The notes beneath the pieces were generated by a model, which ran no database searches, was not told the origin of the DNA, and worked only from the letters and a program-made list of their open reading frames with translations. The position numbers and the translations under genes were made by a program. Of a stretch of DNA of 64,000 nt, positions 22,943-37,883 are shown one piece after another (the first letter of the stretch is position 1; each line of letters begins with the position of its first letter). This DNA is from an uncultured Ignavibacteria bacterium (GTDB lineage: Bacteria; Bacteroidota; Ignavibacteria; SZUA-365), in contig CAJXVM010000003.1 of assembly GCA_913061095.1 (NCBI GenBank), positions 124,001 to 188,000 on the forward strand. Direction: 5' to 3'.

Positions 22943-24463
<1,521 letters not shown>

Positions 24464-24484
24464 TTGCTTTTCCGCCTTTCGTGA

Positions 24485-24514
24485 AAGAGGCTGTCCTTTC
24501 GGGGACAGCCTCTT
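24485..24514. terminator. bidirectional hairpin terminator
   Basis: Stem AAGAGGCTGTCC / GGACAGCCTCTT (12 base pairs, six-base loop) lies between the convergent gdhA and ATP-grasp genes, followed on the + side by CTGTTTTA. Confidence 0.8.
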
Positions 24515-24519
24515 CTGTT

Positions 24520-27500
24520 TTACTGCTGGGGTACGACCACTTCGTTGTCGAAATTATACATATCGCGGTTGCCGGGCGCCTCCTTCATTACGACGCCGCT
24601 GCTCGACTGACCATCGACACGCACCTCCATCTGCTGCGGGGCGCGCATATGCCGCACGAATTCCTTCTCCGCGACCAGTTCGAGTGACTGCAGCCAGTCC
24701 CAGTCGATACGGTCCTCCTCCCGGAAATGCCGCGTTGTGAAATACGCGATGTGAAAAGACGTCAGGTTCTGAAAGAAATGCGACCCCTGTGACGGATCCG
24801 GAAGCATGTTCGGCAGTGAGGTCTCGACGATGGCATGCGCGCCCGAAATACCGGTGAAACGCACCGGAATGCCGAGCCAGGGATCCGCTGACCCCCACCG
24901 GCCCGGACCGATCAGCAGGTACGGCCGCTGTTCGGCCACCAGCTGCCGGTTGAGGTCCGTGATCTCGCGTGCCATCTCCATCGTTTTTGCATTGTCGAAC
25001 TTTTCGGGAATCACATACACGATATCCTGCAGGCGATAGATCCCGTTGCCGAGTACGTTCTGACTGCGCAGCAGCAGGTCATCGTCGCTGATAGCGTCCA
25101 GATCGATCTCCACACTTCCCTCCTCCTTGACCATCGGACGCACCTGCAGGAAATCAAACTCGGATACATCGTCGAAGTGCTTGCCGAGCACTCCGGCGAA
25201 CTCGATCTCCACCGGACAGTTCATTGCGGTTTCGCAAAGCTGCATCAGCAGACGCAGCACTTTCGCGAGCGGAATGAACTCGGACTGCAGGATCGGCGCG
25301 AAGTTCATGACACGCAGTCCCTTGCGAAACGTCCCCTCGTACAGCGTATCATCCTCCGCGCAGTAGGTGGACGCGAGATACTCAAGGGTCTCATGCCGCT
25401 CGGCATCCTTGACGTCGAGCAGTTCGAGGTTCTCTTCCTCACTGGGCTCCTCATTCAGCGGATCGGATTCGAGATCCAACGCCCAGAATTTCTTCTGGGA
25501 ATTGGAAAAATAATCCTTGCGCGTGGCGAACTGCGGGAGAATCGTGGGATACAGGGGACAGAACTGCGCACTGACGCCGCCGTCGACGATGGTCTTGCCG
25601 AGGCCGAGTGCAAGATTGACAATGCCGTCAGACTGCTTTGCATCACCGAAGGGATAGTAATTGAATGAGCGCGCCACGCCTGAGTAATGCGGATAATAGT
25701 AACGGTCAAATCGCGTTCCGGCCATCTCCTGGATGATGACGGCCATCTGTTCCTCTTCGATGCGATGCCCCGTCGCCTCAATATAGTTTTTTGCGCTTTT
25801 CAGATATGTCGATGCATAGACGTACTTGACCGCCTGCAGGAGCTCTCGAAAACGTACATCCGCATCCTCGTTGCTGTTCGGAAGCATGACGGTGGCGTAA
25901 ATGCCGGCGAACGGCTGGTACAGCGTATCCTCGAGCAGGCTCGACGAACGAACGGCGAGCGGATGCCGGTTGCGCCGCACGATGGCGCGCAGATCATCCT
26001 CGACACTCTCCGGGAAGCGTCCCCGCATGAACGCCTGCACGATTTCACTGTCGGGGATGTTCTGCACCACGACCGGCAGCAGATCGTTGAGTTCCATGAA
26101 CTGTGCGAACACCTCCGTACAGAGAATGATCGACCGTGGGATTTTTATCCGTACGTTCGCGAAATACGATGGATGCAGATAATTCTTGAGGATGTTGTCG
26201 ATGAATGCGAGCCCGCGGGCCTTTCCACCGAGCGACCCGCGCCCGATGCGCAGGAACGTCGCCGGCGAATCGGCGTCCTCGGTGGAATACTCGGCGATCA
26301 TACCGCGCTCGTCGAGTATGACCAGTTCGTCGATTTTCCGGATGATATACTCGCGCAGATCGTCGATCGATTCGAATTCAGTGATCTTCACTGGCTTGAT
26401 CTCCTGCGCGAGACGGAACCGCGTGCGCGCGAGCAGCCAGTTGGAAAAATGATCCCGCGAGGCGTGATATCGCAGTGACGCATCCGGGATGGAGCGCAGT
26501 TTTTTACGGAGCTGCCTGATCGTGCGCGCACGATCAACCTCCGTGCCGTCGGGCATGCGGAACACGAAATCCCCGAAGCCGAAATTGTTGAGCATGAAAT
26601 CGCGCACTTCCTGCAGCAGCGTGCGGGAGCGCTTGTTGGAGAATGCCGCATTGAGACTGAGGATTTCATCTTTGAGATCCTCGCGGGAGGACTGCACCAG
26701 CACGGGAAGTTCCGGACTTTTCTCGCGCACGCGACGGATATATTCGATGCCGGCGCGCTCATCCTCTACACCATTGATGGGGAATTTGATGTCCGTGATG
26801 ATACCGAGCAGTTCCTTGCGGTACTTGTGGAAATACCGCCATGCTTCCTCAAAGGTCGTGGCATGCAGAATTTTCGGCCGCGCGCGCTGGCGCAGCAGCT
26901 TCTCCGCAAAGTTCTTGCCCTCCTCGATGAGCATCTGTCCCTGCTTGATCAGCTCGGTATAGATCAGCGGCAGGAATGAAGAATAGAACTGCGGGGAATC
27001 CTCGACAAGGATGATGGCGCGGACGCCGAAATCCTTGCAGTCCGTGCGCGCGTTGATCCAGTCTTCGAGCAGCTTGATGATGGCGAGGAAGAGCTTCCGG
27101 TCGCCCGACCAGATGAAGACGCGATCAAACATGTCGATGGCGCCCTGGTTGAGCAGCATCTGCAGTTCCTTGCTCTGATAGCCGAGCAGGGCCACCGGGA
27201 TATCGGGATTCTGTTCTTTTGCGGCGGCACAGAATGTGTCGAGCCGCATGTCGCCAAGGCGCATCATGGTGATCACGAGATCGAACTGGTGCTCCGCCAG
27301 CGCATCCAGCGCCGCTTCGCCGGAGTATACGCGTGTAATGGACGGCGCGTAGTGAAGGTTCAGTTCGAGGTACTCGCTGAAGATGGCCTCGGTCAGCTGG
27401 CCGTCGTCGACGAGCGTGTAGAAATCGTAACGGCTTGAGACGAGCAGGATATTGTTGACGCGGAAGCGCATCAGATCCTTGAAGTCGAGATCATGCGGAC

Positions 27501-27576
27501 TGATGTCGCGCTTGGAAAACCCCGATTCGATAATGACATCCCGAAGCTCGTCCCGTTTTATGCGTCTGCGTTTCAT
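24520..27576 (-). CDS. receiver-receiver-ATP-grasp (PEP synthase N-domain) giant protein, copy 1
   Basis: A 1018-aa soluble protein. Residues 41-170 are receiver-like, but the acidic pocket is lost (VSS at 46-48) and the phospho-acceptor position is Met104 (FDLVITM). Residues 186-330 form a second receiver with VEDS (191-194) and Asp262 in IITD, so it could be phosphorylated. Residues about 445-815 are a PPDK/PEP-synthase ATP-grasp domain: GGKARGL, AVRSSSLLED, PFAGIYAT, VIIQEM, SGVARSF and LQVRP. The phospho-His swivel and PEP-binding barrel of true PEP synthases are absent. Instead there is a conserved end module with LIGPGRWGS (888-896) and GSHFFQNL (931-938). It is convergent with gdhA. 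The function is unknown; see findings. Confidence 0.85.
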   Translation of the reverse strand: MKRRRIKRDELRDVIIESGFSKRDISPHDLDFKDLMRFRVNNILLVSSRYDFYTLVDDGQLTEAIFSEYLELNLHYAPSITRVYSGEAALDALAEHQFDLVITMMRLGDMRLDTFCAAAKEQNPDIPVALLGYQSKELQMLLNQGAIDMFDRVFIWSGDRKLFLAIIKLLEDWINARTDCKDFGVRAIILVEDSPQFYSSFLPLIYTELIKQGQMLIEEGKNFAEKLLRQRARPKILHATTFEEAWRYFHKYRKELLGIITDIKFPINGVEDERAGIEYIRRVREKSPELPVLVQSSREDLKDEILSLNAAFSNKRSRTLLQEVRDFMLNNFGFGDFVFRMPDGTEVDRARTIRQLRKKLRSIPDASLRYHASRDHFSNWLLARTRFRLAQEIKPVKITEFESIDDLREYIIRKIDELVILDERGMIAEYSTEDADSPATFLRIGRGSLGGKARGLAFIDNILKNYLHPSYFANVRIKIPRSIILCTEVFAQFMELNDLLPVVVQNIPDSEIVQAFMRGRFPESVEDDLRAIVRRNRHPLAVRSSSLLEDTLYQPFAGIYATVMLPNSNEDADVRFRELLQAVKYVYASTYLKSAKNYIEATGHRIEEEQMAVIIQEMAGTRFDRYYYPHYSGVARSFNYYPFGDAKQSDGIVNLALGLGKTIVDGGVSAQFCPLYPTILPQFATRKDYFSNSQKKFWALDLESDPLNEEPSEEENLELLDVKDAERHETLEYLASTYCAEDDTLYEGTFRKGLRVMNFAPILQSEFIPLAKVLRLLMQLCETAMNCPVEIEFAGVLGKHFDDVSEFDFLQVRPMVKEEGSVEIDLDAISDDDLLLRSQNVLGNGIYRLQDIVYVIPEKFDNAKTMEMAREITDLNRQLVAEQRPYLLIGPGRWGSADPWLGIPVRFTGISGAHAIVETSLPNMLPDPSQGSHFFQNLTSFHIAYFTTRHFREEDRIDWDWLQSLELVAEKEFVRHMRAPQQMEVRVDGQSSSGVVMKEAPGNRDMYNFDNEVVVPQQ

Positions 27577-29193
<1,617 letters not shown>

Positions 29194-29220
29194 TCCTCCC
29201 GGACGCGTTCCGCTATTCAG

Positions 29221-29258
29221 AAATCCCCTGCTCCGATCCGTCGGGGCAGGGGATTTTT
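29221..29258. terminator. bidirectional hairpin terminator
   Basis: A 16-base-pair stem (29221-29236 with 29241-29256, one G-T pair, loop TCCG) around TCCCCTGC / GCAGGGGA, ending in a T-run. It separates the convergent second gdhA and ATP-grasp genes. Confidence 0.85.
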
Positions 29259-29292
29259 AATACGATATCGCAATCGCAATCGATATCGTATT
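29259..29292. repeat. perfect 12-bp inverted repeat
   Basis: AATACGATATCG and CGATATCGTATT flank a ten-base spacer CAATCGCAAT. It sits directly after the gdhA terminator and one base before the stop codon of the - strand ATP-grasp gene. It may act as that gene's terminator hairpin or as a protein-binding palindrome. Confidence 0.6.
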
Positions 29293-29293
29293 C

Positions 29294-32200
29294 CTACTTG
29301 ATGGAATTGGATTTCAATACGACGCCGTGCCCGCTCTGTCCGTCAACGATGATCTCAATGTCATCCGCCGCCACGACATGACGCAGATGATCGGTTTCCT
29401 CGATGGCTTCCAGTGCGTTGAGCCACTCCCAGTCGATGCTGTGCGCTTCGTTGTAATGCCGCAGAGTGAAATACGTGATGCGGAACGAGGTCAGATTCTG
29501 AAAGAAGTGCGATCCCTGCGAAGGATCGATGATCATGTTGGGGAGACTCGTCTCCACAATCGCCGTCGCGCCGGAGATGTCGGAGAATACCACGGGAATA
29601 CCGAGCGAAGGATCGGATGAGCCCCAGCGCCCCGGACCGATCAGAAGATACGGCCGCTTCGCCGACAGGAGTTCGTTGTTGATCTTGTTGATCTCGCGCA
29701 CCATCGCACGCGTCTGCATGGCGTCGAAGCTGTCGGGCTTGACGAACACCACGTCCCGAATGTGCTTTATGCCGTTGCCCAGCGTCTGCTCACTCTGAAA
29801 CAGAATTTTTTCCTCGTCGATATCGTCGAAATTGACGTTGAGATGTCCCTCCTGCTTCACCATCGGACGCAGCTGCAGGAAACTGAACTCCGCGGGTTTC
29901 GCGTTGTCAGGACCGAGCTTCACGGCGAACTCGATTTCCACCGGACAGTTCACTGCCGTCTCACACATGTTCACGAGCAGTGTAATGACCTGGTTCAGCG
30001 GAATAACTTCGGATTTCAGGATCGGTGCGAATGTGAGAATGCGCGGTCCGCTGCGGCTGACGCCTTCGTAGAGGCGGTCGTCCTGTCCGAAATATGTCGA
30101 CGCCGTGTACTTGAGCGTCCCGTGCTCCTCGGCGGCGGCGAGATCGAGATGCACAAGATTCTGGTCTTCCCGCGGGTATTTCCGGATGATGTCGGACTCC
30201 AGGTCGAGCGTGTAAAACTTGAGCTGCGAGTTGTGAAACAGGTCGCGCGTGGTGCCGAACTGCGGATACACCGAAGGATAGGCCGGCGAGTACTGCAGAC
30301 TCGTACCACCGTCAACAATGGTCTTGCCGAGTCCCAGCGCGAGATTCACCACACCGTCCTTCTGCGTCGCTTTCCCGAAAGGATAGTAATTGAACGACCG
30401 CGCTACTCCCGAGATTTGCGGATAGAAATACCGATCATGCTTCTCCCCCACCATTTCCTGGATGATCACGGCCATGCGCTCTTCCTCGATGCGGTTGGCC
30501 GTGGCCTCGATATAATTCTTCGCCCGCCGGAAATACGTTGACGCGAACACGTACTTGATTGCCTGTGTGAGATTGTGAAAGCGAACAGACGGGTCGGGAC
30601 TGCTGTTCGGGATCATGATCGTCGCGTAAATCCCGGCGAACGGCTGGTACATGGCGTCTTCGAGCAGCGACGAAGAACGCACGGCAAGCGGGAAACGTGC
30701 CTTGTCGAGAATGGCGCGTATGTCGCCAAGCACCGTGGGAGGCAGATCGGCGTGGAGAAAGGCGCGCAGGATCTCCTGGTCGGAAATATTCTGTACGGCC
30801 AGCGGCAGAAGATCATTCTGTTCGATGAACTGCGCGAAGACATCCGTGCCAAGCACGATGGTCCGCGGGATGGAGATGCGCACGCCCGGGAAATAATCCG
30901 GCGCGAGATACTTGCGCAGCAGGTTGTCGGTGAAGGCCAGACCGCGCCCCTTGCCGCCGAGTGATCCCGCCCCGATACGCAGAAACGTATCCTCCGGATC
31001 GTACTCACTGCGTGCGAAATCAGAGATCACCCCTTTCTGGTCCTGGATCAGGTGATCACTGATCGCCTTGAGCAGGTAAGTGCGCAGATCATCCATCGAA
31101 TCAAACTGACTGACTTTCACCGGCTTGAGCTTGTTCGAGAGTTCGAATCGTGTGCGCGCCTTGAGCCAGTTGCTGAAGTGGTCACGCGCCGCGTGAAATT
31201 CCAGTGACGCATCCGGAATGTAGCGCAGTTTCTCACGCAGTTCACGCAGATTCCGCGCGCGTGTCACCTCCGCCCCGTCGGGCATGCGGAAGATGAAATC
31301 TCCGAACCCGAAATTGTCTTTCATGAAATCACCGAGGGACTGCAGCAGCATCCGCGAGTTCTTGTCGGCAAATGTCATTCCCTCCTGCTCGATCTGCAGG
31401 CGGAGGTCGGTGTCTGAAGACTGAATGAGAATCGGCAGTTCGGGATACTCCTCCCGCACCGTGCGCGAGAATTTGAGCCCGGCCAGGTCGTCACGCTCTC
31501 CCTCACAGGGGAAGGCCATGTCGGCGATGATACCGAGCAGGGTGCTGCCGTATTTGCGGTACAGCGTCATCGCCTCTTCGTAACTGCTGGCAAGGAATAT
31601 CTTCGGCCGTGCGCGCTGCCGCAGCAGCTTGTCCGCAAAATTCTTTCCTTCCTCAATGAGCGCCTGCACCTGCTTGATCAGTTCGGCATAAATCATCGGC
31701 AGATAGGAGGAATAGAACCAGGGGGAATCTTCCACAAGCAGAATCGTTCGCACCCCGAACTCGAGGCAGTCCACCGGCGCGTTGCGGATATCCTCAAGCA
31801 ACTTGATGATGGCGAGAAACAGCTTGCGGTCGCCCGACCACACGAATACGTTGTCGAACTGCGAGACATCGGCCGTTTTCATGTACAGGTCGAATTCCGC
31901 TGACTGGAATGACAGCAGTACGACGGGCAGTTCGGGATGCTGCCGCTTGAGATTGCCGCAGAAGGAGGCGAGATCCATGTCGCCGAGGCGAAGCATGGAA
32001 ATGATCAGGTCGAATTCCTGCGACTCCAGCAGGCGCAGCGCCGCCTCGCCCGAATTCACGCGCGTGATATGCGGCGCATAATGGAGATTCAGCTCCGAGT
32101 ACTCATTGAAAATCGCTTCCGTCAACTGGCCGTCTTCCACCAGCGTGTAATAGTCGTACAGACTGGACACCAGCAGGATGTTATTGATGCGGAAGTTCAT

Positions 32201-32305
32201 CAGGTCCTTGAAATCGAGCTGATGCGTCTTCGGCACCTCGCCGCCGACACCCGATTTTTCAATCAGGTCGGTGACTTCGTCGATCTGTGCGCGTCGGGGA
32301 AGCAT
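29294..32305 (-). CDS. receiver-receiver-ATP-grasp giant protein, copy 2
   Basis: A 1003-aa paralogue of the gene at 24520, colinear throughout. The first receiver is again degenerate (LLVSS at 44-48; Met104 in FDLIISM) and the second intact (VEDS 191-194; Asp262 in IIAD). The ATP-grasp motifs are GGKGRGL (about 450), AVRSSSLLED, PFAGIYAT, VIIQEM and LQLRP, followed by LIGPGRWGSSDPSLGIP and DPSQGSHFFQNL. No phospho-His swivel or PEP barrel follows. The gene starts only 12 bases after the stop of the third glutamate dehydrogenase gene, with AGGAAA before its ATG, so the two are almost certainly co-transcribed. This ties the protein to GDH by operon as well as by neighbourhood. Biochemical role unknown. 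Confidence 0.85.
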   Translation of the reverse strand: MLPRRAQIDEVTDLIEKSGVGGEVPKTHQLDFKDLMNFRINNILLVSSLYDYYTLVEDGQLTEAIFNEYSELNLHYAPHITRVNSGEAALRLLESQEFDLIISMLRLGDMDLASFCGNLKRQHPELPVVLLSFQSAEFDLYMKTADVSQFDNVFVWSGDRKLFLAIIKLLEDIRNAPVDCLEFGVRTILLVEDSPWFYSSYLPMIYAELIKQVQALIEEGKNFADKLLRQRARPKIFLASSYEEAMTLYRKYGSTLLGIIADMAFPCEGERDDLAGLKFSRTVREEYPELPILIQSSDTDLRLQIEQEGMTFADKNSRMLLQSLGDFMKDNFGFGDFIFRMPDGAEVTRARNLRELREKLRYIPDASLEFHAARDHFSNWLKARTRFELSNKLKPVKVSQFDSMDDLRTYLLKAISDHLIQDQKGVISDFARSEYDPEDTFLRIGAGSLGGKGRGLAFTDNLLRKYLAPDYFPGVRISIPRTIVLGTDVFAQFIEQNDLLPLAVQNISDQEILRAFLHADLPPTVLGDIRAILDKARFPLAVRSSSLLEDAMYQPFAGIYATIMIPNSSPDPSVRFHNLTQAIKYVFASTYFRRAKNYIEATANRIEEERMAVIIQEMVGEKHDRYFYPQISGVARSFNYYPFGKATQKDGVVNLALGLGKTIVDGGTSLQYSPAYPSVYPQFGTTRDLFHNSQLKFYTLDLESDIIRKYPREDQNLVHLDLAAAEEHGTLKYTASTYFGQDDRLYEGVSRSGPRILTFAPILKSEVIPLNQVITLLVNMCETAVNCPVEIEFAVKLGPDNAKPAEFSFLQLRPMVKQEGHLNVNFDDIDEEKILFQSEQTLGNGIKHIRDVVFVKPDSFDAMQTRAMVREINKINNELLSAKRPYLLIGPGRWGSSDPSLGIPVVFSDISGATAIVETSLPNMIIDPSQGSHFFQNLTSFRITYFTLRHYNEAHSIDWEWLNALEAIEETDHLRHVVAADDIEIIVDGQSGHGVVLKSNSIK

Positions 32306-32317
32306 GGATTTCCTGGA

Positions 32318-33604
32318 TTACACCCAGCCGCGAAGCTTGCAGGCCTCGGCCACGCGGGCAATGGCGATCATGTATGCTGCATCGCGCATGGGGATGTTGC
32401 GACGCCGCGCCATCTGCGACACGGCGTAATAGGCTTCGGTCATCTTCGTATCGAGTTTGCTGATAACCTCGTCACGTGTCCAGTAATAGTTCATGTTGCT
32501 CTGCACCTGCTCGAAGTAGCTGCAGGTCACGCCGCCGGAATTCGCGAGAAAATCGGGGATGAGCCAGATGCCGCGCTCTTTAATCACCGCGTCGGCAGGC
32601 GGCGTGGTCGGACCATTCGCCCCCTCCGCGATGATCTTCACACTGTCTTTGATTTGCTTGACCGTGTCGCGATTGATCTGGTTCTCCAGCGCGGCGGGGA
32701 TGAGCACTTCCACATCCTGCTCGATCCACGAATCCCCGGGCAGCACTTCATAGCCGGCGTCGGCGGCCTTCGCACGGCTGATTTCCCCGTACGAGTTTGT
32801 GATCGTGCGCAGCTCCTTGAGCTGCACACCGTCTTTCTTGCGGAAGCAGAACGCGGCCTGCTCCTTCTGATCCCAGCTCGAAACGCAGGTTACCGTGCCC
32901 CCGTATGAGGTCAGCAGGTCAATTACATGCTGTGCAACATGGCCGAAGCCCTGCACCGATGCCGTAGTATCCTCGATGCGCAGACCCAGTTCACCGAGCG
33001 CTTCTCGCACGGCAAAGACGACGCCGTAGCCGGTGGACTCGGTCCGACCGAGCGAACCGCCGAGCCCGATGGGCTTGCCCGTGATGGCTCCGGGAGCACG
33101 ATGGCCGACGAGATGCTCATATTCATCGAGCATCCACAGCATATGCTGCGACGAGGTCATCACGTCGGGTGCGGGCACGTCGCTTTCCGGACCGAGAATC
33201 TCGATGATCCGTCGCACCCAGCCGCGGCAGAGCGCCTCCTGCTCACGCATCGAAAGATTATGCGGATCGCAGATCACACCGCCCTTGCCGCCGCCGAGCG
33301 GCAGGTCCACAAGCGCGGTTTTCCACGTCATCCACATCGCCAGCGCACGAACCGTGTCGACGGTTTCCTGCGGGTGAAAGCGAACGCCGCCCTTGGCGGG
33401 ACCCCGCGCGGTGTTGTGCTGGATGCGGAATCCGCGAAAGACCTTGTAGCTTCCGTCATCCATGCGGATGGGAATGTTGAAATGCAATTCCCGATCGGGG
33501 ACGCGCAGGAGTGTCCGTGTTGCCTCGTCGAGCGTGAGCTGCTCGGCGATGCCGTCAAACTGCTGCTGTGCCATCCGGAAGGGATTGAAGGATTCTCCAC
33601 TCAT
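32318..33604 (-). CDS. Glu/Leu/Phe/Val dehydrogenase family protein (glutamate dehydrogenase-like)
   Basis: A 428-aa amino-acid dehydrogenase of the GDH family but of the shorter, archaeal/Bacillus RocG-like branch, not colinear with the two GdhA. Motifs: ARGPAKGGVRFHP, DLPLGGGKGGVICDP with the catalytic Lys, DVPAPDVMTSSQHMLWM, GLGGSLGRTESTGYG, the Rossmann motif QGFGHVAQH and AEGANGPTTP. The QGFGHVA motif (His for the usual Asn) is a variant and the coenzyme cannot be assigned safely. ATG 33604 is chosen because GGAGAC lies seven bases before it; the frame runs open to 33865 but the extension is unlike the family. Downstream, 12 bases away, is ATP-grasp copy 2; upstream, divergent, is ATP-grasp copy 3. 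Confidence 0.93.
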   Translation of the reverse strand: MSGESFNPFRMAQQQFDGIAEQLTLDEATRTLLRVPDRELHFNIPIRMDDGSYKVFRGFRIQHNTARGPAKGGVRFHPQETVDTVRALAMWMTWKTALVDLPLGGGKGGVICDPHNLSMREQEALCRGWVRRIIEILGPESDVPAPDVMTSSQHMLWMLDEYEHLVGHRAPGAITGKPIGLGGSLGRTESTGYGVVFAVREALGELGLRIEDTTASVQGFGHVAQHVIDLLTSYGGTVTCVSSWDQKEQAAFCFRKKDGVQLKELRTITNSYGEISRAKAADAGYEVLPGDSWIEQDVEVLIPAALENQINRDTVKQIKDSVKIIAEGANGPTTPPADAVIKERGIWLIPDFLANSGGVTCSYFEQVQSNMNYYWTRDEVISKLDTKMTEAYYAVSQMARRRNIPMRDAAYMIAIARVAEACKLRGWV

Positions 33605-33854
33605 GCCTGTCTCCATGCCGTATTCTGAAGTGCGTGTGTGCAGGATCTGTCGGCCCGTCACCGGTGCAGCTACCCTGCCGGTACGCGGCCGTCGCGTGGG
33701 AACGGACGTTCGACGCTGTCGTTGCAAGGTATGACTTTTCGGAACAAGTCTCAATTCCGCACCGTTTTCTCCGTTAATTTCCGCAGCATCTTTCGCCTCG
33801 CGCGTGCAATGATTATTTTCCAACCACGAAAACGATACCAGATGCAGGCGTTGT
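33605..33854. promoter_or_regulatory. divergent promoter region
   Basis: A 250-base gap between the third glutamate dehydrogenase (-) and the third ATP-grasp gene (+). It must hold promoters for both. I see an A/T-richer patch at 33770-33840 but no convincing promoter or operator motif. Confidence 0.35.
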
Positions 33855-36800
33855 ATGGACCGCAAGGAAAAATCGCTCGGTGATCTGCTCTACGCGCTGG
33901 GAGAACGCGCGAAGGAGCTGAACTGTCTCTATCACGTCGAGGAGGTGCTCGCGCAGCATGACCGCAGCTTCGACGAAGTGTTCGAAGGCGTGCTCGAGGC
34001 CATCCCTCCCGGCTGGCAGTTTCCCGACATCTGCCGTGCGCGGATCCGCTACGGCGGCAAATCCTACACCTCCCCCGAATTCGTGGAATCTCCCTGGCGC
34101 CTCTCCGCCGACATCGTCATCCAGGACCGGGTGGAAGGAACGATCGAGATATTCTATACGCGGGAAGTCGGTCCGGCCGACGAGGGACCGTTCCTCAAAG
34201 AGGAGCGCAAACTGATCAACACGATTTCCGAGCGTCTCGGGCACCACATTCTTCACCACCGTCTGCACAACGTTTTCTCCGAGTGGCAGTCTCTCAAGCA
34301 GCAGCTCGCCGAGAAGAAGCGCGAGGAGTGGAAGGTCATCCTGCAGATGCTCCGGCGCACCGATCAGAATCTCTACACGCGCATTTCACGGAAAATGCTC
34401 AACCGTCTCTGCTGGGCGGGCATCAAGACCGCCTGCGATCTCATGCAGCGCTTCAGCGCGCGCAACGAAAACGATCCGGACGTGTTCGGCGAAAGCAACC
34501 GTCCCCGGCAGCGCGAGCAGCTGCACAATTTCATCGCGCAGAGCGACGAGATCTTCCAGATCGCCGCGGAGCACCTGAGCGAAGAGGAGATCCTCTATCT
34601 CATCCAGAAGTGGATCAAAGACGACAAGGCGTCCTTCCTCGTCAACTCGGTGGAGAACCTCGATACATCGCTCGCCGAGATCGTCGACGCCATCAGCCGT
34701 TACTATCACATCTTCCCCGAGGGCATCGAACTTTCGCCGTCCACCGAAAAGGGGCTGCGCGTTTCACTGATCCGGCGCTTCTTCACCGAGCAGCTGCCGT
34801 ACATCAACATCGCCAAGGATTATCTCGGCGTGCATGATTTCTTCGACCTCACCAAGCGCATCATTTTCCACCAGAAAAGCCATGGGAAGCTCGGCGGCAA
34901 GAGCTCGGGGCTGTTCCTCGCCTGGCATATCATCCGTCAGGAGCAGGAGCGATCAGGACGCTTTCAGAACGTGCGCATCCCGAAGACATGGTACATTACC
35001 TCCGACGGGATTCTCAACTTCATCCACTACAACAACCTCGAGGAGGTATTCAACCAGAAATACCTCGACATCGAGCAGGTGCGGGAAGAATACCCGTCCA
35101 TTATCCAGGTATTCAAGAATTCGTATTTCTCGCCCGAATTCATCAAGGGTCTCGCGGTGGCACTGGACGACTTCGGAGACCACCCGCTGATCGTGCGCAG
35201 CTCGTCGCTGCTCGAAGACAGCATGAACGCCGCGTTTTCGGGAAAATACAAAAGCCTATTCCTCGCCAACGCCGGCACGAAGGCGCAGCGCATCGCTGCG
35301 CTGCTCGACGCCATCGCGGAGGTATACGCGTCCACCTTCGGTCCCGATCCGATCGAGTACCGCGCCGAACGCGGACTGCTGGATTTCCACGAGGAGATGG
35401 GAATCATGATTCAGGAAGTCGTCGGCGTCCGCGTGGGCAAGTACCTGATGCCGACCTGGTCGGGCGTGGCATTCAGCAACAACGAGTTCCGATGGTCGCC
35501 GCGCATCCGGCGGGAGGACGGACTGATCCGCCTCGTACCGGGTCTCGGCACGCGCGCGGTCGATCGCATCGGCGACGACTATCCCGTGCTGCTGGCGCCC
35601 GGTCAGCCGTCGCTGCGCGTCAACATCACTCCTGACGAGATCGTGCGTTACTCGCCGAAGCGCATCGACGTGATCAATCTCGAGAAGGAGACCTTCGAAA
35701 CCGTCGACGTGCTCGACCTGCTGCGAGACGTGGGAAACGAGTATCCGGGCATCAACAGCGTGGTATCGCAGTACGACGGCGACACCATCCGTCAGCCCTT
35801 CGGATTCGACCTGGATTTCGACAACGACCTGTACGCCGTGACCTTCAACGGACTGATTTCCAATACGGATTTCGTGCGGGAAATCCACGAAATGCTGACG
35901 CTGTTCAAGGAGAATCTCGAGACGCCGGTGGACGTGGAGTTCGCCTCCGACGGGAAGCATCTGTACCTCCTGCAATGCCGTCCGCAGAGCTTCTCGCAGG
36001 AAAACATCCCATCGCCCATCCCGCAGGACATCCCGCGGGACCGGAAGGTTTTCACGGCGAACCGGTACATCTCCAACGGACGTCTGCCGGATATCACGCA
36101 TATCGTGTACGTCGATCCCCGGCGTTATTCCGAGTTGTTTGAGCGCAACGATCTCGTGACCGTGGGACGCATCATCGGCAAGCTCAACAAGCTGCTGCCC
36201 AAGCGGCAGTTCATCCTCATCGGTCCCGGCCGGTGGGGCAGCCGCGGCGACATCAAGCTCGGCGTCAGTGTCACTTACTCCGACATCAACAACACGGCGC
36301 TGCTCATGGAGATGGCACGCGAACAGGGCGGCTACCTGCCGGACCTTTCATTCGGCACGCATTTCTTCCAGGATCTCGTGGAGGCATCGATCCGCTATCT
36401 CCCGATCTATCCCGACGACGATGACGTGCTGTTCAATGAGTCCTTTCTGACGCGGAAAAAGAACATCCTGGCCGACCTGCTCCCGGACTACGCGAACTTT
36501 GCTGACACGGTGCACGTGGTGGATGTGCCGAGGAGCACCGACGGCAAGGTGCTGCGCGTACTGATGAATGCCGATCTGGAACAGGCCGTCGGCTACCTCG
36601 ATGATCCTTCCACCGCGCCGCCCGAAGTCAGGGAAGCGCCCGCGCCGACACAGCGCATGAACGACGACCACTGGGAGTGGCGGATGCGCATGGCCGAGCG
36701 CATCGCCTCGGACCTCGATCCGAAGCTCTACGGCGTCAAGGCGTTGTACCTGTTCGGCAGCACGAAAAACGGCACCGCGGGTCCGGCGAGTGACATCGAT

Positions 36801-37019
36801 CTGCTCGTGCACATCGACTGCACCCCTGAGCAGAAATCCTGCCTCGAAAGCTGGTTCCGGGGATGGGGCATGAGTCTCGCCGAAGTCAACTTCCTGCGCA
36901 CCGGCTACAAGGTTGACAATCTCATCGACGTCCATTACGTCACCGACGAAGACATCGCCGAACGCAGTAGTTACGCCGCCAAGATTGACGCCGTCACCGA
37001 CGCCGCGCGGCCTCTATAA
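33855..37019 (+). CDS. GAF-ATP-grasp (PEP synthase N-domain)-nucleotidyltransferase fusion
   Basis: A 1054-aa soluble protein, the third member of the ATP-grasp group. Residues about 15-145 look like a GAF sensory domain (LSADIVIQDRVEGTIEIFYT, then ERKLINTISERLGHHIL). Residues 150-330 are helical. The ATP-grasp part has LGGKSSGL (346-353), LIVRSSSLLEDSMNAAFSGK (445-464), MIQEVVG and LLQCRP (705-710). ILIGPGRWGS (787-796) and FGTHFFQDL (833-841) show the same end module as the other two. A nucleotidyltransferase domain follows: LFGSTKNGTAGPASDIDLLV, with Gly-Ser 968-969 and Asp980/Asp982 of the GS...DxD motif. It therefore joins a sensor, an ATP-binding core and a nucleotidyl transfer domain. 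It is divergent from a GDH gene. Function unknown. Confidence 0.82.
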   Translation: MDRKEKSLGDLLYALGERAKELNCLYHVEEVLAQHDRSFDEVFEGVLEAIPPGWQFPDICRARIRYGGKSYTSPEFVESPWRLSADIVIQDRVEGTIEIFYTREVGPADEGPFLKEERKLINTISERLGHHILHHRLHNVFSEWQSLKQQLAEKKREEWKVILQMLRRTDQNLYTRISRKMLNRLCWAGIKTACDLMQRFSARNENDPDVFGESNRPRQREQLHNFIAQSDEIFQIAAEHLSEEEILYLIQKWIKDDKASFLVNSVENLDTSLAEIVDAISRYYHIFPEGIELSPSTEKGLRVSLIRRFFTEQLPYINIAKDYLGVHDFFDLTKRIIFHQKSHGKLGGKSSGLFLAWHIIRQEQERSGRFQNVRIPKTWYITSDGILNFIHYNNLEEVFNQKYLDIEQVREEYPSIIQVFKNSYFSPEFIKGLAVALDDFGDHPLIVRSSSLLEDSMNAAFSGKYKSLFLANAGTKAQRIAALLDAIAEVYASTFGPDPIEYRAERGLLDFHEEMGIMIQEVVGVRVGKYLMPTWSGVAFSNNEFRWSPRIRREDGLIRLVPGLGTRAVDRIGDDYPVLLAPGQPSLRVNITPDEIVRYSPKRIDVINLEKETFETVDVLDLLRDVGNEYPGINSVVSQYDGDTIRQPFGFDLDFDNDLYAVTFNGLISNTDFVREIHEMLTLFKENLETPVDVEFASDGKHLYLLQCRPQSFSQENIPSPIPQDIPRDRKVFTANRYISNGRLPDITHIVYVDPRRYSELFERNDLVTVGRIIGKLNKLLPKRQFILIGPGRWGSRGDIKLGVSVTYSDINNTALLMEMAREQGGYLPDLSFGTHFFQDLVEASIRYLPIYPDDDDVLFNESFLTRKKNILADLLPDYANFADTVHVVDVPRSTDGKVLRVLMNADLEQAVGYLDDPSTAPPEVREAPAPTQRMNDDHWEWRMRMAERIASDLDPKLYGVKALYLFGSTKNGTAGPASDIDLLVHIDCTPEQKSCLESWFRGWGMSLAEVNFLRTGYKVDNLIDVHYVTDEDIAERSSYAAKIDAVTDAARPL

Positions 37020-37883
37020 CAACTCCCTGCTCGCCTGGTCCGGACGGGCGGGATCGAAGCGCACGAGCGCCAGCTCCCGCCGGTGATGCGCGGCGGTGTA
37101 GCTCCATGTGCGGCCGATCTGCTGTTTCCAGGATCCCGTGATGGAAGCTGATTCGTGGATGTGTCCGTGAAGGGTGATGAGCGGCTGCAGGCGGTCGATG
37201 AAGCGGCGGATGGCGATGCTGCCCACATGAACGTCGAGGGGAACGTGGTCGATTTGTTTTCCGTCGAGCGCGGCGCGGTCGAACAACGTCTGATACGGCG
37301 GCGAGTGAAAAAGCATGATCGCACGCTCCATGCCGCGCCCCGCCGTGAGGCGTTCGAGATCCTCCTGTATAGTGCCGTAACGGAGTTCGAGCGTATCCAC
37401 CGGCACGGAATGCATGCCGTGTTCCGGGGAGATACAACCGGGATCGACATAGCGCGAGACGTCGTAACGCTCCCAGTCCTTGAGCTGAAACGGCGTCGGC
37501 GGCACGTGCGCGTACCCGAACACCTCATACTCCCGCCAGTCCGCGCGCATATTGTGCATGTATGTCCACAGCCCAGTGTATCGTGCGTCGAACAGCTGCC
37601 GTTCCTCCGCTCGCGGATCGTCGTTGCCGAGAATCAGAAAGACGGGGGGATAATGCTCTCCGAGCTGCTCGCGAAGCAGTGCCAGCCGCGCGGCGAAAAA
37701 GTCCCCGATAAAATCCGCGACCTCGGGATACAGTCCCTTTGCTGAGCGCGCATGCGCAGGCAGCAGGTCACCGCCGAGGAAAACGGCAGCCGGCCGCTCG
37801 GCCGCGATGCGATCGAAGAGCGCGTCGTAGCGATGCCGGTGGCCGTGGAGATCCGATGCGAAGAAACAGAGCATCGCCGCCAT
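37014..37883 (-). CDS. calcineurin-like metallophosphoesterase
   Basis: A 289-aa cytosolic phosphoesterase. The dimetal motifs are complete: SDLHGH, GGDLLP, GNDD, FHSPPY and GHIHES. Substrate unknown. Its last codons overlap the convergent ATP-grasp gene by six bases, so there is no room for a terminator between them. The outer-membrane protein gene ends directly upstream, without a gap in transcription direction, so both are probably on one transcript. ATG 37874 is a possible alternative start. Confidence 0.88.
   Translation of the reverse strand: MAAMLCFFASDLHGHRHRYDALFDRIAAERPAAVFLGGDLLPAHARSAKGLYPEVADFIGDFFAARLALLREQLGEHYPPVFLILGNDDPRAEERQLFDARYTGLWTYMHNMRADWREYEVFGYAHVPPTPFQLKDWERYDVSRYVDPGCISPEHGMHSVPVDTLELRYGTIQEDLERLTAGRGMERAIMLFHSPPYQTLFDRAALDGKQIDHVPLDVHVGSIAIRRFIDRLQPLITLHGHIHESASITGSWKQQIGRTWSYTAAHHRRELALVRFDPARPDQASRELL

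Follow-up and report, generated by a model that had tools for sequence, protein, structure and literature searches.

A GAF–ATP-Grasp–Nucleotidyltransferase Fusion Protein Paired with Glutamate Dehydrogenase in Many Bacterial Phyla: A Candidate Covalent Regulator

Gene Organization at the Locus

The stretch of DNA analysed here (64,000 nucleotides, referred to as the window) carries three glutamate dehydrogenase (GDH) genes which alternate with three genes for giant PPDK_N proteins within 14 kb, at 23060-37019 (Table 1). One of the giants, designated Q, is the main subject of this paper, and the other two, RR1 and RR2, are its paralogues. The open reading frame (ORF) of Q begins with ATG and is a real gene, with full-length homologues (51–92% identity) in many phyla. 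The dN/dS ratio is about 0.03–0.2 in each folded domain, including the C-terminal nucleotidyltransferase (NTase), which is under purifying selection. Among the homologues is a 1627-aa ORF (L076:8285-13165) in which a short PPDK_N paralogue is fused to Q.

Table 1. Genes of the locus and domains of Q, with their positions in the window.
Feature	Position	Strand	Description	Remarks
GDH-B	23060..24463	+	NADP-GDH-like	ATG at about 23123; convergent with RR1
RR1	24520..27576	-	Two receiver domains, PPDK_N, swivel-like module	1018 aa
GDH-C	27799..29193	+	NADP-GDH-like	ATG at about 27850; divergent from RR1
RR2	29294..32305	-	Two receiver domains, PPDK_N, swivel-like module	1003 aa; directly downstream of GDH-A
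GDH-A	32318..33604	-	Archaeal-type glutamate dehydrogenase, partner subfamily of Q	428 aa
Q	33855..37019	+	GAF, helical region, ATP-grasp (PPDK_N), swivel-like module, Pol-beta nucleotidyltransferase	1054 aa
Q, residues ~10-156	33882..34322	+	GAF-type sensor domain	Structural alignment to solved GAF domains
Q, residues 157-340	34323..34874	+	Helical region	No known family
Q, residues 341-724	34875..36026	+	PPDK_N ATP-grasp	PF01326, conservation, fold; K349, R448, Q520, E695, Q707, R709
Q, residues 725-918	36027..36608	+	PGRWGS module, probable diverged swivelling phosphohistidine-type domain	Conservation, weak fold matches
Q, residues 939-1054	36669..37016	+	Pol-beta-type nucleotidyltransferase	G968 S969 ... 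D980 x D982 ... D1025
Metallophosphoesterase	37014..37883	-	Metallophosphoesterase	Convergent with Q, 6-base overlap

GDH-C is 75% identical to GDH-B, and the ORF on the minus strand at 27862-29091 was rejected as a gene, being an antisense ORF over GDH-C. A TTG start of GDH-A at 33865 is probably spurious. A search by consensus found neither Sigma-70 promoters nor terminators between GDH-A and Q. In the RR1/RR2 group the first receiver domain is degenerate and the second is intact, its residues E192, D193, D262, S296 and K315 each being kept in 39 of 40 members, so the His of the swivel-like module could phosphorylate an Asp of the same chain. The metallophosphoesterase adjoins Q in 34 of the 65 testable loci; that it might be the eraser of a modification made by Q is speculative.

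Domain Architecture of Q

The four domains that the original prediction gave to Q, namely a GAF-like start, an ATP-grasp core, a PGRWGS module and a C-terminal NTase, all hold up by Pfam, structure prediction and conservation taken together. The AlphaFold2 model has a mean pLDDT of 82 and a pTM of 0.67. The helical region which follows the sensor domain has no homology with the helical region of the receiver paralogues, and its end (from about residue 306) forms part of the ATP-grasp fold.

The N-terminal domain gave no GAF match in a Pfam scan, and yet in the AlphaFold2 model it has the GAF fold: residues 10-145 align to the GAF domain 3cit with Z 13.1 (rmsd 2.5, 126 residues aligned), and the region also aligns to the GAF domains of NifA (8jrc, Z 11.7) and PtsP (3trc, Z 11.2). 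The same sensor domain (33–35% identity) serves as input in two histidine kinases (HisKA_3 and HATPase) encoded upstream of the GDH and Q genes at related loci (L036:4578-5747 and L044:2387-3634), each of which is adjoined by a gene for a protein of about 210 aa, possibly a response regulator. In EI-Ntr, binding of glutamine to the GAF domain inhibits autophosphorylation (PMC4848567), which makes it a precedent for the GAF-gated control proposed below.

The central domain is recognized by Pfam as PPDK_N (PF01326, residues 345-723, E 2e-55), and the top fold matches of the model are PEP synthase, pyruvate phosphate dikinase (PPDK) and rifampin phosphotransferase (Rph); the ATP-grasp proposed originally is specifically of the PEP-synthase/dikinase/rifampin-phosphotransferase type. 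K349, R448, E695, Q707 and R709 are invariant in all 81 members of the Q family and Q520 is kept in 79; these residues are also conserved in two groups of paralogues, the receiver-type proteins and short ones of about 590 aa.

The PGRWGS module is a real unit, whose motif residues G792-R-W-G795, D799, E819, S832, G834 and H836-F-F are common to Q and both paralogue groups, even though the three groups are only about 20–30% identical across it. H836 (codon at 36360-36362) is invariant in 81 of 81 Q family members. With regard to its nature, Pfam found no PEP-utiliser phosphohistidine domain (PF00391, TSH motif) in Q, and profile comparison between the module and that domain by hhalign detected no sequence similarity (probability 0.1). 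Structural alignments of Q with Rph, PEP synthase and PPDK, on the other hand, pass beyond the ATP-grasp into the His-domain region of these enzymes (5hv3, to residue 915 of the model; 2ols, to 917; 1dik, to 927). The module folded alone reached pLDDT 90.5; Foldseek found nothing for it at E ≤ 0.001, and VIA-align gave weak matches (best Z 5.8), including the His domain of Rph (residues 756-867, Z 5.4) and PPDK (Z 5.0). Many of the VIA-align matches have what SCOP classes as the swivelling beta/beta/alpha fold (the His domains of Rph and PPDK, the C-terminus of pyruvate kinase, RraA, LD-carboxypeptidase and the chaperonin apical domain). In the model H836 opens a helix after a strand, and the catalytic His of Rph, PEP synthase and PPDK likewise stands at the start of a helix after a strand. 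The modelling suggests that the module is probably a highly diverged swivelling phosphohistidine-type domain, although Z scores so low could reflect a mere common arrangement.

The C-terminal domain matches NTP_transf_2 (PF01909) at residues 956-993 with E 6.5e-9 (36.5 bits, cutoff 21), and among solved structures it resembles minimal MNT-type domains (2rff, 8xeo). The original numbering of Ser969, Asp980 and Asp982 is correct. Its statement that GS...DxD is intact is true of Q and of most homologues, but an acidic residue is lost in some: G968 is invariant in the homologues that have the NTase region, S969 is retained in 74 of 77, D980 in 73 of 77 and D982 in 72 of 77, with D980 and/or D982 missing from six (L021, L047, L050, L056, L060 and L075). 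All six are at most about 58% identical to Q, so the loss of DxD in close homologues, which the prediction named as evidence against itself, was not found. D1025, retained in 74 of 76, is a good candidate for the third catalytic acid. Since six of the 77 homologues lack at least one of the NTase acids, nucleotidylation cannot be the sole conserved function, and that Q is specifically a nucleotidylating enzyme is a prediction from sequence. Judged by residue conservation, the strictest constraint in Q is on the core formed by the ATP-grasp and His836, stricter than on the NTase.

Linkage with Glutamate Dehydrogenase

Among the 54 Q-homologous loci with at least 3.5 kb of upstream sequence, GDH lies within 3.5 kb upstream of Q in 52 (46 on the same strand and 6 divergent as in the window), in most cases as the adjacent upstream gene in the same orientation. 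With L042 added, GDH adjoins Q in 53 of the 54 testable loci, L014 being the only exception; in addition, the 16 kb around Q in one genome (G008, locus L103) contain no GDH. The pairing spans more than a dozen bacterial phyla, and Q homologues occur in Ignavibacteriota, Calditrichota, Bacteroidota, Acidobacteriota, Bacillota, Fidelibacterota, Kiritimatiellota, Gemmatimonadota, Spirochaetota and Planctomycetota among others, where single assignments may be wrong because most of the records are MAGs. The recurrent neighbours of Q are metabolic or signalling genes, and in about 21 loci an extra gene of about 590 aa (PPDK_N and PGRWGS) adjoins Q, usually between GDH and Q.

A less biased sample of 118 genomes from the same phylum contained the PGRWGS module 39 times, in 20 genomes, and GDH lay within 7 kb of 30 of these 39 module genes, against about 1% expected. 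Where a sampled genome lacks the module, its GDHs reach no more than 49% identity to GDH-A. In the tree a single clade (100/100 support) unites the Q-paired GDHs; besides them it contains just the GDH of G008, a genome that bears Q but in which this GDH stands beside a receiver-type paralogue. The pairing of Q with one GDH clade is nearly universal. The sister group of this clade includes GDHs linked to receiver-type paralogues, and residues specific to the Q-paired GDHs were listed, none of which could be named as a modification site.

Receiver-type paralogues stand beside GDH in relatives as well (L095, L096, L097, L099, L105, L107 and L109); in Parabacteroides distasonis the paralogue is divergent from gdhA and in Phocaeicola massiliensis it is beside GDH. 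In gut Parabacteroides and Phocaeicola (L143:4088-8572 and L175:5062-9575) the receiver-type paralogue is divergent from a GDH gene and a second GDH lies a few kb off.

Because the linkage is strong, Q and its paralogues very probably work with GDH. The linkage speaks for a shared function and does not by itself make GDH the substrate of Q. That the neighbouring GDH matters, as the original prediction held, is borne out by the linkage in 53 of 54 loci, the dedicated GDH clade and the GDH-flanking paralogues, while the covalent regulation guessed at is something we infer; the divergent arrangement on which that guess drew holds for this family of genomes, but elsewhere the same-strand GDH-Q pair is usual.

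Comparison with Known Systems

Judged by its domains and family scores, Q is not a member of the PEP synthase, PPDK, Rph, EI-Ntr, GlnE/GlnD or MNT families. Rph, PEP synthase and PPDK share with it a PPDK_N ATP-grasp with conserved nucleotide-binding residues, and their swivelling His domain probably has a diverged counterpart in the swivel-like module of Q with its invariant His; unlike them, Q has no PEP/pyruvate barrel, rifampin domain or canonical TSH motif, has GAF and NTase domains and is linked to GDH. EI-Ntr (PtsP) also has a GAF sensor before a phosphohistidine-type machine in a nitrogen context (PMC4848567), but it uses PEP and PEP-utiliser and PEP-binding domains, for which Pfam gave no match in Q, where ATP-grasp and NTase are found instead. 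GlnE and GlnD resemble Q in GS...DxD nucleotidyltransferase chemistry on a nitrogen enzyme, which for Q is only proposed; Q differs from them in architecture and presumed target, and neither a GlnE domain nor the GlnD combination of NTase, HD and ACT was matched by Pfam or NCBIfam at E ≤ 1. The minimal Pol-beta fold of the NTase is that of the MNT antitoxin and ANT nucleotidyltransferases, although in Q it is fused C-terminally to an ATP-grasp protein and no toxin partner is seen. The protein of Bacteroidales annotated as “PEP/pyruvate-binding domain-containing protein” (WP_041525632.1) has the PPDK_N and PGRWGS modules and is adjacent and divergent to gdhA, like Q in the window, but receiver domains replace GAF and NTase is absent. 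By analogy, Q may work by a blend of mechanisms, the His loading of Rph and PEP synthase, the GAF-gated phosphohistidine of EI-Ntr and nucleotidylation of the GlnE type.

Possible Function of Q

The best explanation, to which we give a probability of roughly one half, is that Q would regulate its partner GDH covalently, driven by ATP and gated by the GAF domain, because its input domains are signalling domains and its catalytic parts are transferases. As Q stands beside one kind of GDH in more than a dozen phyla, it probably senses nitrogen status and chemically controls GDH. In this mechanism the GAF domain would respond to a signal of nitrogen status (glutamine and 2-oxoglutarate are conceivable ligands, by analogy with EI-Ntr and NifA), and the signal would gate the dikinase-type ATP-grasp. 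The latter would use ATP to phosphorylate His836 of the mobile swivel-like module, a step that would have its parallel in PEP synthase and rifampin phosphotransferase. Reversible modification of the partner GDH, or of Q itself, would follow, with this phosphoryl group, with a nucleotide supplied by the NTase, or with both, and would switch ammonia assimilation.

Q might instead be a metabolic enzyme which uses ATP to phosphorylate or ligate a product or substrate of GDH (glutamate, 2-oxoglutarate or ammonia), with the swivel module handing phosphoryl on to a substrate that GDH or another protein has bound. Small molecules are the normal targets of PPDK_N/His enzymes, and none of the PPDK_N paralogues here has the acceptor domain usual for such enzymes, a GDH being their partner instead; however, Pfam recognized no acceptor-site domain, and the GAF or receiver inputs and the nucleotidyltransferase suit control better than bulk catalysis, so we consider this unlikely. 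Another reading, less probable still, is an ATP-driven GDH. Here the swivel module of Q, of the receiver-type and of the short paralogues would pass phosphoryl from the ATP-grasp to the active site of GDH or to a substrate bound there, with GDH standing in for the acceptor domain that PEP synthase has and these proteins lack; ammonia assimilation by GDH would thereby be energy-coupled and signal-gated. It is also doubtful that the NTase has Q as its target (through self-AMPylation, or as a switch that binds nucleotide) or acts on some unlinked protein, for instance PII, with the GDH linkage reflecting co-regulation only: its resemblance to minimal MNT-type domains and the loss of its triad in 6 of 77 homologues beside an invariant core speak for this, but throughout many phyla the partner comes from one GDH clade, a pairing tighter than usual co-regulation.

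The PPDK_N domain and the top fold matches might suggest an ordinary PEP synthase, PPDK or rifampin phosphotransferase, but orthology with these enzymes is refuted and such an identity is exceedingly improbable. The PEP/pyruvate-binding barrel (PF02896) had no hmmscan match in Q, whose C terminus is the NTase, so Q is not a PEP synthase; PF00391 had no Pfam hit either, GAF and NTase are extra, and the scores fall far under the NCBIfam cutoffs (TIGR01418, the PEP synthase/PPDK equivalog, 52.9 bits, cutoff 739.75; NF041857, rifampin phosphotransferase, 30.8 bits, cutoff 999). Equally hard to credit is an MNT-type role of Q in toxin-antitoxin systems or defence. The weak matches to MntA antitoxin (NF047752, 25.7 bits, cutoff 60) and to PADLOC PDC-S09 are confined to the NTase motif, whereas the GDH linkage is stable across phyla and the recurrent neighbours are not of this kind. 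The PADLOC matches of the locus were rejected as defence genes, as they cover generic NTase and phosphoesterase motifs only.

Biological Significance

In the open-access literature no description of Q or of its GDH partnership was found, nor anything relevant that connects GDH with PPDK, ATP-grasp, adenylylation or NTase domains, nor a covalent control system dedicated to bacterial GDH. A GAF-gated regulator such as we propose would belong to a known kind of control, the covalent control of nitrogen enzymes, built from unusual parts and apparently directed at an unusual target. GDH is a central ammonia-assimilating enzyme, and the conserved GDH partner in many phyla, together with its receiver version beside gdhA of gut Bacteroidales, provides candidate genes for GDH switching. 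In work of the late 1980s the GDH of Bacteroides fragilis was reportedly inactivated reversibly in vivo by ammonia, with no mechanism given; if this is true, the neighbouring PPDK_N gene would be directly testable as the cause.
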